The position numbers were made by a program, and so were the translations under genes. This document shows positions 2,581 to 31,931 of a stretch of 34,176 bases of DNA, piece by piece. How positions within the stretch are numbered: position 1 is the first letter of the stretch; each line of letters begins with the position of its first letter. Source of the DNA: Candidatus Omnitrophota bacterium (GTDB lineage: Bacteria; Omnitrophota; Gorgyraeia; Gygaellales; Profunditerraquicolaceae). The DNA lies in assembly GCA_026387455.1 (NCBI GenBank), contig JAPLLR010000035.1, forward strand, positions 1-34,176. The letters run 5' to 3'. The notes under the pieces were generated by a model that had not been told where the DNA came from, searched no databases, and saw nothing but the letters and a program-made list of their open reading frames with translations.

Positions 2581-2594
2581 AACTATGGAAATCT

Positions 2595-2996
2595 TGGAGG
2601 TGGGGGGAATTGAACCCCCGTCCCTAAGCAGACCGATAAAAGCCGCTACATGTTTAGTCTATCTATTTCGCTTATTCCTGAGCACTCCGCTAGACAGGAT
2701 TGCGCAGGCCGCAGCCTTTTTTAGTCTTATCCGGGCCCCAAAGGCAAATTTACCCGAACCAGCCTGTTAGCGGCTCTCGATCAGACCACAGGCTGCCTGA
2801 AGAGAGGTTCGCTTCTTAGTGAAGCGAAACTAAACAACCGGCTGGCACAAAACCCATTACTGGGTTCACAGCCAAGCGGTTAACCATTGTTATTGGTTTT
2901 GCGTTTATATTGTGCAAGGATTGTTAACGCGGCTCACCTTACATCCGCGACATGCTGCTCTTACCCGACATACCTAAGTCGAGCCCTTTCACCCCC
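2595..2996 (-). ncRNA. ssrA: tmRNA (transfer-messenger RNA)
   Basis: tmRNA rescues stalled ribosomes together with SmpB, encoded just upstream. The 5' end GGGGGUGAAAGGGCUCGAC and the 3' end with a T-arm (GGGGG-TTCAATT-CCCCC) pair through a 7-bp acceptor stem, GGGGGUG with CACCUCC. The discriminator A lies at 2595, and CCA is not encoded. The sequence AAGACTAAACATGTAG-like tract before the T-arm is usual for this family. The 402-base length is normal. The tag reading frame is not obvious: from the GCA at the expected resume region the frame stays open for 28 codons to a TAA in a hairpin loop, and no short tag ending in LAA is seen. Confidence 0.93.
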
Positions 2997-4843: not shown

Positions 4844-5461
4844 TTATCCCGCAATGTACCGCTCAATCTCACCCAGATTCTGTATATTTTTCTTCTTCAG
4901 GTAAAACCGCGTACCAGACTTCTTTATAATTATAGAAATCCTTTCCCCGTCTGGTTTTATGGTGTTTGCATCCCCAATAAGCTCTAAATCTTTCCCTTTA
5001 AAATTTCTATATTCTATAGTAACCAGGATCTCTTTTCGTTGTGACTCTAATTGCGCCTCGATCTGAGAATTTACGCAACCCTCCACCTCACTTAGATTCT
5101 TTATAAAACGCTTCTTAAAGGATATCCTCTTTCCGGTAGGTACGGCCTGCGCTGAAACATATTCGCTTTTAGCGATCAAGGTAGTTTTATCTACCTCGTA
5201 CGACCTATCAACTCCGAGATAATTACGATATTTGATAGTCAAAGAATTGAACCCGGGATGAAAATCTCGTCCAATAAACCCACTTTTTCTATGATACTCC
5301 TCTTTTGGATTGCTTAACACTTCCACTGGCGGCACAAGCTGAGAATCGTACTTTTTACAGCTCATATTCGGGCACTTGACTTGCCCCATGAATACCTTTG
5401 CTCCCCGCTGACGGCATTCCGGACACAATCCCCATTTACCGAACAAACCGGCTAACCCCAT
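4844..5461 (-). CDS. Zinc-ribbon protein with two WYL-like repeats (hypothetical)
   Basis: I start this at ATG 5461 (205 residues), eight bases after a strong GGAGG; a longer frame to 5530 would run through the hairpin leader. Residues 12-35 form a zinc ribbon with CPEC and a second CPNMSC pair. Then come two copies of a domain of about 50 residues: LTIKYRNYLGVDRSYEVD ... KRISFKKRFIKNLSEVE and VTIEYRNFKGKD ... TRFYLKKKNIQNLGEIE. Each resembles the strand pattern of WYL domains, which sense ligands or bind nucleic acid in some regulators. That match is by eye. There is no helix-turn-helix. It is the last gene of the RT-containing unit and carries leader-motif copy C. Function is unknown; a regulatory or nucleic-acid-binding role beside the RT is only a guess. 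Confidence 0.75.
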   Translation of the reverse strand: MGLAGLFGKWGLCPECRQRGAKVFMGQVKCPNMSCKKYDSQLVPPVEVLSNPKEEYHRKSGFIGRDFHPGFNSLTIKYRNYLGVDRSYEVDKTTLIAKSEYVSAQAVPTGKRISFKKRFIKNLSEVEGCVNSQIEAQLESQRKEILVTIEYRNFKGKDLELIGDANTIKPDGERISIIIKKSGTRFYLKKKNIQNLGEIERYIAG

Positions 5462-5471
5462 GTGTGACCCT

Positions 5472-5518
5472 CCTTCCACAGAAAGTGGAACACCAACCTT
5501 TCCTATAAGGTTGGGTGT
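5472..5518 (-). promoter_or_regulatory. Two-hairpin leader motif, copy C
   Basis: On the minus strand, stem 1 is CCAACCUU-(AUAGGA)-AAGGUUGG (8 bp; plus positions 5493-5514), flanked by ACA and UGU that can also pair around a bulged C. Stem 2 is UUCCAC-(UUUCU)-GUGGAA (6 bp; 5474-5490). GGAGG follows at once, then ATG 5461. The loops are identical to copy A, while both stems differ by compensating changes. Confidence 0.75.
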
Positions 5519-9424: not shown

Positions 9425-10669
9425 TTAACAAAGTGCCGCACTTTCTCCGGCGAGATATCCGGTAGAAAACGCTGCCTGCAGATTGAATCCGCCGGTATCG
9501 GCGTCGATATCGATCAGCTCGCCGCACAAATACAACCCCCTTACCTTACGCGACTCCATAGTGCGGGGGTCTATTTCTTTTAAAGAAACTCCCCCGCGAG
9601 TAACCATTGCCTCCTCCAGCGCAAGCGAGCCTGAGATATCTAAACGGAAACCTTTCAAAAGGATAACCATGATTTCGCGCTCCTGACGGGTTACCTGAGC
9701 TGCCTGCTTATCCGGATTTATTTTAGCAAGTCTTAAGAAACAATCAACCAACCTTAGGGGCAACAATTCTTTTAAAACATTGCGGATGCTCTTTCGAGAA
9801 GTGGCGGAAAACTCGCGCAAAAGCCTGGCATCTAGCTGCTGGCCGCTTAAAGCCGGCTTTAGATCTATTTCCACGCCCACAGACTTTTTCTCACCCAGCC
9901 AATCCACGATCTTACCACTCAAAGTCAGGACCAACGGCCCGGAAATACCAAATCCGGTAAACATCAACTCTCCGGTTTCAGAAACTATTTCTTTCTTTCC
10001 GTCGGTAAATGTCAAACGGATATTGCGCAGATTCAGACCTTCCAAATCTTTGACCCACTCCTGCGCTGTTTTAAGGGGAACCAGCCCAGGCCGCAAAGAT
10101 GTAACTTTGTGCCCCAAACCCTCAACTATTTTTAATCCTTCCCCGCTTGAGCCGGTGAAAGCGTAAGATACACCTCCGGTAGCCAGGATAACTTTATCCG
10201 CGGGAAGCAGCTTACCTCCCAAAAGCTCAACCCCTTTCACTGCCCCAGCCCCTAACGCTATTGCCCTTACCTGCGCCATATAAATTACATTTACCTTATT
10301 TCTCTCTAGCTCCTTTTTCAAAACCTCCAAGATGCTGGCTGAACAATCAGAAACAGGGAAAACCCGCTCTTGCCTTTCGACTTTTAGCCTCAACCCGCGC
10401 GACTCAAAAAAATCCATCAGCTCGCGGTTAAAAAACTTTTTAAAAGCATCGCGTAAAAAAGCGCCGTTATGAGAGAAACGTTTTAGGAATTGGTCAAGGT
10501 CACAGGCATTGGTAAGATTACAGCGGCCTTTGCCGCTTAAGAGGAGCTTATTTGCGAGAGTAGACTTCTTCTCGAGGAGAGTTACATCCTGATGCAGCGC
10601 GGCAGCCCGAATCGCCGCCATCATCCCGGCAGGACCGCCTCCAATGACAATTATTCTTAAAGCGCTCAC
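9425..10669 (-). CDS. BaiN/HI0933-family FAD-dependent oxidoreductase
   Basis: This is a 414-residue flavoprotein. The FAD-binding Rossmann motif is IVIGGGPAGMMAA (about 6-18), followed by GKGRCNLTN (about 47-55). A second family signature lies near the middle (VILATGGVSYAFTGSSGEG). The C-terminal FAD motif is LYLCGELIDIDADTGGFNLQAAFSTGYLAG. Members of this family (HI0933, YhiN, BaiN) are found in many bacteria, and most have no assigned substrate, so the true reaction is unknown. It shares one base with the pyrE stop and is followed two bases later by the Maf gene. Confidence 0.9.
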   Translation of the reverse strand: MSALRIIVIGGGPAGMMAAIRAAALHQDVTLLEKKSTLANKLLLSGKGRCNLTNACDLDQFLKRFSHNGAFLRDAFKKFFNRELMDFFESRGLRLKVERQERVFPVSDCSASILEVLKKELERNKVNVIYMAQVRAIALGAGAVKGVELLGGKLLPADKVILATGGVSYAFTGSSGEGLKIVEGLGHKVTSLRPGLVPLKTAQEWVKDLEGLNLRNIRLTFTDGKKEIVSETGELMFTGFGISGPLVLTLSGKIVDWLGEKKSVGVEIDLKPALSGQQLDARLLREFSATSRKSIRNVLKELLPLRLVDCFLRLAKINPDKQAAQVTRQEREIMVILLKGFRLDISGSLALEEAMVTRGGVSLKEIDPRTMESRKVRGLYLCGELIDIDADTGGFNLQAAFSTGYLAGESAALC

Positions 10670-11226
10670 TAAAGGCCGAAATCCTTAATGGAAAAAATCG
10701 ATTCTAACTTCAAACCGACTTTAGCCAAATTATCCGCGGCGCCTTCTTTTCTATCTACAATCACTATTGCGGTTTCCGCGATTACGCCTATCTTATCTAA
10801 AGCCTCTTTTGCTTCAATTAGCGCCTTACCGGTTGTGGCCACATCATCGACGAGGATCACCTTACTTCCCGCGGCAAGCGCCGGGCCTTCCACCTGCTTG
10901 GCCATCCCGTGCTCTTTGGCAGCCTTACGCACGATAAAAGTCTTAACCGGAATATCCCTCTGATAAGCAAGGCAGGCCACAGCACCCACGATCGGGTCAG
11001 CACCCAAAGTCGGTCCGCCGATGGCGTTGACGCCTTTACCCTTAGACATCTCAAGGATGATGTTACCCACCAAATACGCGCCTTCCGGTGTCATGGTAAT
11101 CACCCGGCCGTCCAGATAATAGTTGCTCTTTTTACCGCTTGAGAGAGTAAAATCCCCACGCCTGAGCGCTTCTTTCTCCAGTAACTTATGCAAGTCTTTT
11201 TTCAGATCATCAATAATAGATTCCAT
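10669..11226 (-). CDS. pyrE: Orotate phosphoribosyltransferase
   Basis: PyrE joins orotate to PRPP to give orotidine monophosphate in pyrimidine synthesis. The 185 residues match the family. Seen features are the N-terminal helix region with FTLSSGKKSNYYLDGR, the GGPTLGADPI loop, KEHGMAKQVEG and the PRPP-binding motif VILVDDVATTGKALIEA. It heads the minus-strand unit. A promoter (11300-11328) and leader-motif copy A lie ahead, so expression is likely set through this leader. Whether the leader senses a pyrimidine is not known, as the same motif also precedes unrelated genes. Confidence 0.95.
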   Translation of the reverse strand: MESIIDDLKKDLHKLLEKEALRRGDFTLSSGKKSNYYLDGRVITMTPEGAYLVGNIILEMSKGKGVNAIGGPTLGADPIVGAVACLAYQRDIPVKTFIVRKAAKEHGMAKQVEGPALAAGSKVILVDDVATTGKALIEAKEALDKIGVIAETAIVIVDRKEGAADNLAKVGLKLESIFSIKDFGL

Positions 11227-11235
11227 TTGCTTATG

Positions 11236-11287
11236 CCTCCTTCAGCAGAAAGCGGAACACTGGCTTTTCCTATAAAGCCAGGTGTAA
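11236..11287 (-). promoter_or_regulatory. Two-hairpin leader motif, copy A (pyrE leader)
   Basis: On the minus strand, stem 1 is CUGGCUUU-(AUAGGA)-AAAGCCAG (8 bp; 11260-11281), flanked by ACA and UGU that can pair around a bulged C. Stem 2 is UUCCGC-(UUUCU)-GCUGAA with one mismatch (11241-11257). GGAGG then follows directly, and ATG 11226 is nine bases further. The motif starts about 10 bases after the predicted transcription start. Confidence 0.75.
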
Positions 11288-11382: not shown

Positions 11383-11579
11383 TTTAGCGGGTCCTGCCTT
11401 GGCTTGTCCTGCGCGCGGCTTTTGCCGTGCTCGGATCAAGCCAAGTCACCCGGTAAACTTACCAGTTATTCCAAAGCCGCTAAGTGCATTTTATCAGCAA
11501 GCTTGTTGTTAGCGGCTGACTTGGACTGATTTCGAGCGGGGCGTCCGAGGAACCGAGCGGGCATGGATCACCCGCTAAA
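11383..11579. repeat. Intergenic element E1 with terminal inverted repeats
   Basis: This 197-bp element fills much of the 513-bp gap between the divergent pyrE and comF genes. Its ends are a perfect 10-bp inverted repeat, TTTAGCGGGT (11383-11392) and ACCCGCTAAA (11570-11579). Inside are a 9-bp stem CTTGGCTTG/CAAGCCAAG (11398-11406 with 11437-11445) enclosing a 7-bp hairpin with loop TTTT, and a further repeat unit at 11509. A 50-base segment at the right end resembles 25429-25478. No reading frame is convincing and no target-site duplication is seen. Confidence 0.55.
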
Positions 11580-25275: not shown

Positions 25276-25489
25276 GTTAGCGGGTCCTGACTTGGACTGT
25301 TTCTCGCGGGCTAGGGTTAGCGGGTCCTGTCGAGGCATATTTCTCGCAGGGACGCTTGGTGCGGCCCAGCGTGCCGCACCTGCGCTCCACTCCAGCCCCT
25401 CGCTCTCGCCTGTATGTGTATAGCGGACGAACCATGCCCGCTCGGGGCTTCCGAGGCCCTGCTCAAAACATGCCTCGCCACCCGCTAAC
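25276..25489. repeat. Intergenic element E2 with terminal inverted repeats
   Basis: This 214-bp element fills most of the 255-bp gap between cysS and tmk. It is bounded by a perfect 10-bp inverted repeat, GTTAGCGGGT (25276-25285) and ACCCGCTAAC (25480-25489). A second copy, TTAGCGGGTCCTG, starts at 25317. The segment 25429-25478, with ACCATGCCCGCTCGG, is a relative of the right end of E1 in opposite orientation. No gene and no target-site duplication is seen. Confidence 0.55.
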
Positions 25490-28101: not shown

Positions 28102-28772
28102 TTTTTGGCTATCGCCTCCGCGATGATCAGGTCTTCAGGTGTTGTGACTTTAATATTGGTGTAAGAGCCAAAAACCACCCGCGGCTTCACTCCCATGCGC
28201 TCGACCAGCATAGCGTCATCCGTAACATCGGTTTTTCCGAAACGCTCATATGCCTGCTGTATCAGGTTTCTTTTAAATATCTGCGGGGTCTGTATCTCCC
28301 AAAGAGAACTTCTCTCTAATGTCTTCCTTACGTAATCGCCGCTAACTTCCTTGATCGTGGCTTTGACCGGAACCGCAGCGATGGCCGCGCCCGCTTCAAA
28401 AGCCTCGCGCATAGTCCTATCGATCATCTCATTGGTAATAAAAGGCCGCGCTCCGTCGTGGATGATCACCAGCTCCGCCTTGGCATCCAGGGCTTTCAAA
28501 CCGTTGCTGACGGAATCCTGCCGCCGCTTTCCGCCCAAAATGATCTTTTTGATCTTTGCCGGACGGAAATTCTTTAGCATTGCCGAAACCGCCCTGGCAT
28601 TAGATTGATTGACTACTACGATGATCTCATGCACCCGCGGGTTCTGTGCAAAAGCTTTCAAAGAATAAGCCAAAAGCGGCTTAGTCCCCACCTTTACAAG
28701 CGGTTTTGAGACACGCGATTTAAGCCGCTGGCCCTTGCCCGCGGCAAGCACTATTGCACTAGCAAATTTCAT
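28086..28772 (-). CDS. ispD: 2-C-methyl-D-erythritol 4-phosphate cytidylyltransferase IspD
   Basis: IspD forms CDP-methylerythritol in the MEP pathway. The 228 residues contain the nucleotide-binding start [36 protein letters not shown] and ETPQ-type text ([10 protein letters not shown]), then [11 protein letters not shown]. It overlaps ispF and shares 4 bases with the PIN/TRAM gene. Confidence 0.96.
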
Positions 28773-29752
28773 TTCTCAAGTTTTGTGAAAATCATCCGGC
28801 CTGCCTGAGTCTGCAAAACTGAGGTGACCGTCACTTTTACTTCCTGGCCCAATAGCCTGCGCGCGTCCTCAACCACCACCATAGTCCCGTCTTCAAGGTA
28901 GCCCACCGCCTGGTTATGCTCCTTGCCTTCTTTTAAGAGCTTGATCTGCATCTGCTCGCCGGGAAATACCACCGGCTTAAGAGCGTTGGCCAACTCATTG
29001 ATATTCAAGACCTTTATCCCCTGAAAACTGGCTACTCGATTAAGGTTAAAATCCACGGTCATTATCTTTGCCTCAATTAATTTGGCTAATTTCACTAGCT
29101 TAGCATCCACCTCATAAGTCTCAGGAAAATCTTCCTCGTTTATAGTGAGATTCTGCCCGGCTTCTTTCTGAATAGTATGTAACACTTCAAGGCCGCGCCT
29201 TCCCCTCTGACGCTTTACGGGATCAGTAGAATCAGCGACCTGCTGCAGCTCTTTTAAGACAAAGCGTGGGATGATCACCTTGCCTTCGAGAAACTTGGTC
29301 TTAAAAATATCCTGGATGCGGCCGTCAATTATAACGCTGGTATCCAAAATAGTCATTTCTTCTGCCTGATCCTGGCGTCGCAGACGTACATAAGGGATGA
29401 TGATATTGAACTCATCCTTACCACGCAGGCCGATAAGCATACCCAGATAACAGAAAATAAGCATCAGCGTGACTTTGATTAAAGCTATATACTCTTGCGA
29501 CAAAGCAGAGGTACTGACAGCATCTGCTACCAACTTCCACATGATCAGCCCAAGTAAAAGCCCGAATACGGCACTCGATAGACCGCGCACCGAGACCTTA
29601 CGCATACCCATCTCAACTAGAATAATCAGCAACGCCCCGATGGCTCCGGCCATTGCTCCGATCATTCCCATTTTATTCACATCCACTAAAGCCTGATAGC
29701 CGACCAAAGAGCTTCCCAGCACAAAAAATATTCTTACAAATAATAAAATCAT
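28769..29752 (-). CDS. PIN/TRAM-domain membrane protein (YacL family)
   Basis: This 327-residue protein has four hydrophobic segments in the first 110 residues, so it is anchored in the membrane. A PIN nuclease domain follows, with [16 protein letters not shown] and further acidic residues near [13 protein letters not shown], and then a C-terminal TRAM domain with [24 protein letters not shown] that could bind RNA. Bacillus has the same gene order radA-disA-yacL-ispD-ispF, but disA is absent here. Copy B of the leader motif precedes it, with AGGAGG ahead of ATG 29752. Confidence 0.92.
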
Positions 29753-29759
29753 AGTACAC

Positions 29760-29808
29760 CCTCCTTGCGCAGAAAGCGCACCCTGACTTTACCTATAAAG
29801 CCAGGGGT
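29760..29808 (-). promoter_or_regulatory. Two-hairpin leader motif, copy B (PIN/TRAM leader)
   Basis: On the minus strand stem 1 is CCCUGGCUUU-like: CCUGGCUUU-(AUAGGU)-AAAGUCAGG (9-10 bp, one G-U; 29781-29806). Stem 2 is UGCGC-(UUUCU)-GCGCA (5 bp; 29766-29780). AGGAGG follows directly and ATG 29752 is eight bases further. Its stem 2 differs from those of copies A and C at all or most pairs while loop UUUCU is unchanged. Confidence 0.75.
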
Positions 29809-31200: not shown

Positions 31201-31814
31201 TACTTCTTTTCTTTTGTCTTAAAAAACAACTTCCAGGGATTCTTTCTTAAATCCTGCACTAAGGCCTCTAAATCATTATAAATCTGGTCATCAAAAAGCA
31301 GCTTCCCTACAGTCCCCTCTTTATTTTTTATCTTAACGATGATATCATCCAAATTAGTGGCAATTTTCTTAGCCAGCTCCGTCACTTCCTGCATCGGTAT
31401 AGGATCCACTCCTGCTATCTCCTGATTAGCAGTAAGCAGGCTAGCATAATCTTTACCCGGAATGATTTCAATATACTTTTCACCCAAAAGCCCAAGCGTA
31501 TTCACCCAGACGCTTGAATCCATAGGGATCAAAATGTCATTCTTAATCCAGCAGTTTATTTTGACCACGGATTTAGACCCCTCTGGCAGATACATGCACT
31601 TGATATCCTTGACCTCACCCACATCCACCCCGGCAAAACGCACCGGTGCTCCAAACTTGACACCATTGACAAAGTTAAAAGTAAAATTCACCTTATACCC
31701 GGCGCTCCATGTTTCATATTTGCCGATAAAAAAGACGAACATAACCAGGATCATCAGACCGCCGAAAACAAAAACTCCAACTCTTAATTCCAATTTACTT
31801 TTTCCGAAAACCAT
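31200..31814 (-). CDS. mlaD: MCE-family lipid-binding protein MlaD-like
   Basis: This is the periplasmic substrate-binding part of an Mla-type lipid transporter. I start it at ATG 31814 (204 residues), with AAAGGA nine bases ahead, because the N-terminus then reads KSKLELRVGVFVFGGLMILVMFVFFIG, a membrane anchor. A longer frame to 31868 adds residues unlike the family. The MCE domain follows: FVNGVKFGAPVRFAGVDVGEV and LGLLGEKYIEIIPG. It has a short C-terminal tail ending KNPWKLFFKTK. With mlaE and mlaF upstream it forms a transporter that probably moves phospholipids between membranes. Confidence 0.92.
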   Translation of the reverse strand: MVFGKSKLELRVGVFVFGGLMILVMFVFFIGKYETWSAGYKVNFTFNFVNGVKFGAPVRFAGVDVGEVKDIKCMYLPEGSKSVVKINCWIKNDILIPMDSSVWVNTLGLLGEKYIEIIPGKDYASLLTANQEIAGVDPIPMQEVTELAKKIATNLDDIIVKIKNKEGTVGKLLFDDQIYNDLEALVQDLRKNPWKLFFKTKEKK

Positions 31815-31847
31815 GTGTGTTTGTCCTTTCAGGCAGCTAGCCTGCAC

Positions 31848-31893
31848 TTCGTCGCAGAAGCGGCGCACTTGCCACCAAATATGGCAAGGTGTG
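31848..31893 (-). promoter_or_regulatory. Divergent copy D of the two-hairpin motif (mlaD upstream)
   Basis: On the minus strand a 7-bp stem CUUGCCA-(UAUUUGG)-UGGCAAG (31868-31888) is followed by a stem of about 5 bp with one mismatch around the loop UUCU (31850-31865). The order of stems and the text around them (ACACC ahead, GUGCGC between) follow copies A-C, but the loops differ by one or more bases and the ribosome site lies some 25 bases further away. It is a weaker match. Confidence 0.45.
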
Positions 31894-31931
31894 CCATCCT
31901 ATAGGCAAAGGTGCACCTAGCATTAATTGAT

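Follow-up and report, generated by a model that had tools for sequence, protein, structure and literature searches.

Tiny non-coding intergenic repeats include the small dispersed repeats of cyanobacteria as well as repeats of the BOX/RUP/ERIC type which are unlike the element described here in sequence, anatomy and lineage and which we mention as a lead. Double-hairpin elements (DHE), also referred to as repetitive hairpin-forming elements, are described for mitochondria of fungi and sponges (Paquin et al. 2000, as cited in PMC2800124), those of sponge mitochondria differing by complementary substitutions (PMC2800124). REP and REPIN elements with their RAYT transposases are treated in PMC3116915, PMC2817692 and PMC3733652, the first of which also names SDR (small dispersed repeats); GT pairing is "often observed" in GTAG families (PMC3733652).

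The repeat which we report from Omnitrophota resembles DHE in its two adjacent hairpins (98% of alignment cells paired), its length of some tens of bases, its numerous copies between genes, presence or absence between close species (mobility is indicated by three exact 44-nt filled/empty pairs) and the lack of a known enzyme. It differs from them in being bacterial, in its bias towards Shine-Dalgarno (SD) sequences on the sense strand, in its conserved loops GGA and UUUCU and in its self-nesting. We regard this resemblance as an analogy of form and do not claim homology. With REP/REPIN elements it has in common that it is small, abundant (103 copies of a short intergenic stem-loop structure), palindromic, thought to be mobile and split into sub-families with alternative complementary stem residues. 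Unlike these, it possesses neither a GTAG/CGTC tag nor an association with a Y1 transposase, consists of two different hairpins arranged head-to-tail and contains few G-U pairs. Translational riboswitches and leader RNAs likewise place hairpins directly upstream of the SD, but the present element is mobile, defines no regulon, is not conserved at orthologous genes and has no Rfam match. Its nearest kind is that of miniature palindromic mobile repeats, its unusual feature the ribosome-site bias. We consider it very probable that it constitutes a new phylum-specific family of non-autonomous 44-bp double-hairpin mobile repeats for which the 5' edge of ribosome sites is the favoured or best tolerated location. 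It is present in high copy number and spread throughout the phylum, occupies sites which are precisely filled or empty, nests in its own kind and is enriched 5' of same-strand SD sequences. For a poorly known uncultivated phylum this adds a mobile repeat of high copy number whose boundaries are precise, which is seen in filled and empty states and which prefers the ribosome-site edge.

Anatomy and pairing of the double hairpin

The window, i.e. the whole analysed stretch of 34,176 nucleotides, contains the copies listed in Table 1. Those upstream of pyrE, the PIN/TRAM gene and the zinc-ribbon gene had been recognised in an earlier note on this DNA and were confirmed at their places, all on the minus strand and each ending at GGAGG followed by a start codon. 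They are clearly beyond chance, the covariance models giving them per-genome E-values between roughly 1e-11 and 1e-20. A fourth copy (D), located before an MCE/mlaD-like gene and split by a nested one, had been overlooked. Its outer stem GCAC-C-TTTGCC / GGCAAAGTGC is followed by AGGC-TAGCT-GCCT and then by AAAGGA and an ATG (31812-31814); by eye, both hairpins re-form once the outer parts are put together.

Table 1. Copies of the double-hairpin element in the window, abutting ribosome sites and genes behind them
Feature	Position	Strand	Score or basis
Copy A, double-hairpin core before pyrE	11241..11284	(-)	R3 66.5 bits
GGAGG (SD) abutting copy A	11236..11240	(-)	read from sequence
pyrE-like phosphoribosyltransferase gene behind copy A	10669..11226	(-)	Pfam PF00156
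Copy B, double-hairpin core before PIN/TRAM gene	29765..29807	(-)	R3 45.9 bits
GGAGG abutting copy B	29760..29764	(-)	read from sequence
PIN/TRAM gene behind copy B	28769..29752	(-)	Pfam PF01850, PF01938
Copy C, double-hairpin core before zinc-ribbon gene	5474..5517	(-)	R3 69.6 bits
GGAGG abutting copy C	5469..5473	(-)	read from sequence
Zinc-ribbon gene behind copy C, start MGLAGLFGKWGLCPEC	4844..5461	(-)	ORF
Copy D (outer), before MCE/mlaD-like gene, split by inserted copy E	31831..31914	(-)	sequence
Copy E, nested in 3' arm of copy D stem 1	31850..31891	(-)	R3 32.9 bits

Searches of Pfam and PADLOC with the zinc-ribbon gene yielded no match. Directly upstream of copy C lies a reverse transcriptase gene (PF00078; 5575-7035, minus strand) whose closest PADLOC match, RT_UG26, makes it a candidate defence reverse transcriptase. 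The window also harbours a tmRNA gene (2594-2996, minus strand) for which ARAGORN reports an unusually long tag of 28 residues that may be a mis-call, and imperfect intergenic direct repeats (GTTAGCGGGTCCTG...) at 11383-11417, 25276-25310 and 25316-25350, one of them near pyrE.

The element measures 44 bp and consists of two hairpins side by side. Stem 1 comprises 9-10 bp including a bulged C and encloses a loop which holds GGA, while stem 2 measures 5-6 bp and carries the loop UUUCU or a similar one. The unit can be written as CAC-C-NNNCCT / loop / AGGNNNGTG, directly followed by stem 2. Loops and stems had been given correctly in the earlier note, except that its 8-10 bp for stem 1 has to be replaced by 9-10 bp with the bulged C (CAC-C-NGGCC...GGCCNGTG) and that stem 2 of copy A, which otherwise pairs as described, contains one C-U mismatch.

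As the two alignments we evaluated were built from model hits they lean towards structure, with slid and shuffled controls falling far below them: in the first (29 rows) 98% of the cells are paired and 14 of the 15 pairs have changed on both sides, and the second, made of copies from other genomes, gives the same result with 98% paired in both helices. The changes lead almost wholly from one Watson-Crick pair to another. About 200 distinct copies contain 2784 Watson-Crick pairs, 47 G-U pairs (1.7%) and 94 mismatched ones, which amounts to a G-U to mismatch ratio of 0.50 (0.46 in the SD copies alone). This value falls within the range of 0.20 to 0.50 predicted for unselected single mutations at a transition bias of 1 to 4. 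Selection at the RNA level should favour G-U over a mismatch; since G-U is only half as common, the covariation, strong as it is, is no evidence of a selected RNA structure, for which the paired stem changes had been taken as the mark. We infer that the complementarity of the stems is kept at the DNA level, where copying or arm-to-arm correction may maintain it. Compensatory stem changes among the copies of a mobile palindrome can, as a caution, mimic the signature of a riboswitch.

Abundance, filled and empty sites, and nesting

A covariance model of five copies with the SD included (R2) produced 91 hits at E<=10 in the genome, about 75 of these at E<0.01. With a second model (R3), restricted to the core, leaving out the SD and built from 29 diverse copies, we obtained 97 hits at E<=0.1 in the genome (1.68 Mb) and 103 distinct copies at E<0.01 in the genome stretches examined. 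The midpoint of 79 of these 103 is situated outside long open reading frames, compared to 25% of the examined sequence. The search of relatives which had been proposed revealed copies in 79 of 285 sampled Omnitrophota genomes, with 22 candidates scored per genome and the copy counts per genome hence being lower bounds. A scan of 84,980 species genomes with an exact degenerate pattern for hairpin 1 retrieved 30 stretches, all of them from Omnitrophota/Omnitrophica or from MAGs labelled plainly "bacterium". As to viral carriers, the hairpin pattern had no match in IMG/VR. Neither the gathering nor the E-value scan of Rfam 15 assigned the element to a family, in line with the original impression that it is not recognisable as preQ1, GEMM, SAM or ykkC, and in the literature searched we found no mention of such repeats for Omnitrophota.

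Two genomes of a single genus (G129 and G109), about 85% identical in synteny and belonging to a genus different from that of the window genome, allow the comparison of filled and empty sites. Three orthologous sites, compared with flanks of 2-2.5 kb, differ by exactly the 44-nt unit. In L183 the unit (9871-9914) separates CTGGATG from CCCGTCC, while the empty counterpart in L358 reads CTGGTTGCCCGTCC; L172:15924-15967 is filled versus L344, and L196:14663-14706 is filled versus L181 with one junction base changed. All three clean empty sites are non-SD places. The three pairs show no target duplication. Because flanking direct repeats are absent, the direction of the change is probably insertion, not deletion. 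The unit would enter intergenic DNA and hairpins of its own kind precisely and without target duplication. As a rule, the SD does not belong to the mobile unit, since it is precisely the 44-nt core that is missing at the empty sites; pyrE is a possible exception.

Nesting takes several forms. Copies are inserted into the loop of stem 1 (L203, L149, L082, L037 and others; by eye, L037:1329-1450 of genome G025 shows three levels), into the 3' arm of stem 1 (copy D of the window and several in G129/G109) as well as into stem 2 (L074, L081, L095, L097); in addition, head-to-tail arrays are present in L072 and in G025. Nested-looking copies, i.e. those whose joined flanks are complementary over at least 6 bp, account for 20 of 273 (7.3%), as compared with 2.1% for 44-nt gaps placed at random; part of the 20 are insertions into other palindromes. 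Larger compound palindromic islands (AACTCCGC...GGAGGCCTACCCTTTCTGGGTTAACTCC...), in which the elements form inner layers, occur in L163, L172, L187 and other stretches of G129/G109.

The unit presumably moves, or is copied, as a DNA hairpin with the aid of a trans-acting enzyme. Size, intergenic placement, high copy number, palindromic stems with alternative complementary residues and the presence of one Y1 protein in the genome would suit REP/REPIN elements moved by RAYT (Y1 tyrosine) transposases, an explanation which we nevertheless judge very unlikely. The flank composition of 88 copies contains no unpaired GTAG or CGTC tag at an end of the palindrome, and the arrays are mostly head-to-tail instead of forming inverted doublets. 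A survey of 40 genomes for PF01797 found no Y1 protein in the element-rich G020 and G003 and no element hits in the Y1-rich G039 (11 proteins). The reverse transcriptase beside copy C had suggested a further candidate, but reverse transcriptases occur in 7 of the 40 genomes and in none of the element-rich G020, G003 and G013. That neither Y1/RAYT-type transposases nor reverse transcriptases track the copy number also counts against our own explanation as a mobile repeat.

Placement at ribosome sites and its possible meaning

In the window genome 47 of the 103 copies are followed within a few bases by a same-strand SD, a start codon and an open frame. On the antisense side the same test is passed by one of 103, and by 1.8% of random positions outside long open reading frames, corresponding to a 25-fold enrichment at the SD edge. 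The concentration just before start codons which the earlier note had anticipated is thus no random placement. Copies abutting an A-run form a second class (19 in the pooled set); the A-run, by eye, is part of the terminator of an opposite-strand gene. The pooled flanks of 88 copies are weakly TA on the left and GGA- or GRA-like on the right. Judged by reading of their N-termini, the genes behind SD-type copies comprise rpoA, rpsK, rpsG, nusA, yebC, smc, parA, carB, purB, pyrE, dapB and many more; this is a set of unrelated housekeeping genes which lacks functional coherence and forms no regulon.

Among the 30 genomes examined for each gene, the element precedes pyrE in the window genome alone and the PIN/TRAM gene in about four, most orthologues of the latter having a plain leader with SD. 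In many relatives (L283-L311) pyrE appears leaderless, with a -10-like box about 10-20 bases from the ATG and no SD; the SD of pyrE would therefore have come with or after the element. Where orthologous genes do carry copies, these resemble each other no more closely than copies picked at random from the same genome. Convincing homologues in the window genome's set of 52 were found for 8 of the 56 SD-type genes of relatives versus about 1.8 expected (P ~5e-4; one lysine-rich and one spurious pair discounted), an excess between genera that may reflect copies being kept for a function. The genera thus share some preference or retention, yet this does not amount to a conserved regulatory element.

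A genuine cis-regulatory RNA, either riboswitch-like or protein-bound, which controls translation with a regulon-like spread over the genome, had been the natural guess from the sequence. The exact abutment of 47 copies to a sense SD with start codon as opposed to a single antisense one, the more intact stems of SD copies and the partial sharing of genes between genera speak for it, as do predicted folds in which loop 2 sequesters the SD in two of five copies. More than half of the copies, however, lie elsewhere, including those at A-runs; the genes lack coherence, the element is rare at orthologous genes where it may be present or absent, copies nest in one another, Rfam offers no match and G-U pairs are deficient. 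A switch in which the UUUCU loop pairs with the ribosome site, as had been envisaged, has to be discarded as this loop is equally common in copies with and without SD behind them. We therefore deem a regulatory RNA highly improbable. Binding of CsrA/RsmA, to which the GGA of loop 1, its best conserved part, and the further GGA contributed by the SD might point, is of practically negligible probability: no CsrA scores above the family cut-off in the window genome or the rest of the 22 genomes searched, control genomes being positive, and CGGA or UGGA frequently takes the place of ANGGA in loop 1. Some SD-adjacent copies of a mobile repeat may have been co-opted, their hairpin insulating or tuning ribosome binding and being kept by selection. 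This option, compatible with the reading as a mobile repeat, appears possible but rather doubtful to us. The enrichment at the SD edge, the excess gene sharing and the position of copies in front of genes likely to be strongly expressed, rpoA and rpsK among them, agree with it. The best hint is the excess of perfect stems, found in 72% of SD-adjacent copies versus 49% of the others (Fisher p=0.001), a comparison biased towards the former as many of them were found with the SD-containing model. Yet the lack of particular likeness between orthologous copies argues against it, and an insertion preference for GGA-like sites can give the same bias, the unit also being inserted into its own stem 1 at the GG(A) loop. 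If SD-adjacent copies do affect translation, mobile DNA would be rewiring the start of translation for core genes throughout a phylum.

For the family of mobile repeats which we favour, the ribosome-site bias would result from target preference and from insertions being tolerated there. Against this family weigh, besides the enzyme surveys, the excess of perfect stems and of shared genes among SD-type copies, the SD of pyrE, and the clean empty sites being confined to one other genus and to non-SD places. Leaders of the type TA(A)^GGAGG and the TA^GGA of the element's own loop may represent one kind of target, with which the empty sites of G129/G109 agree loosely. A stronger version, according to which a module homes to ribosome-binding sites via a TA^GGA-like target which is at once its own loop and the SD, and serves dozens of housekeeping genes phylum-wide as a portable translation-initiation element, seems unlikely. 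A riboregulator is superfluous to the favoured reading; local effects on translation are possible and would be side effects instead of the expression of a regulon.

A different palindrome of about 20 bp (GCCTGCCTGCCGGCAGGCAG) is located directly before GGAGG in the PIN/TRAM leader of G016 (L263) and recurs in L364 of G129. Its presence or absence varies between G109 and G129, and it would represent a further family of palindromes sharing this preference for ribosome sites.
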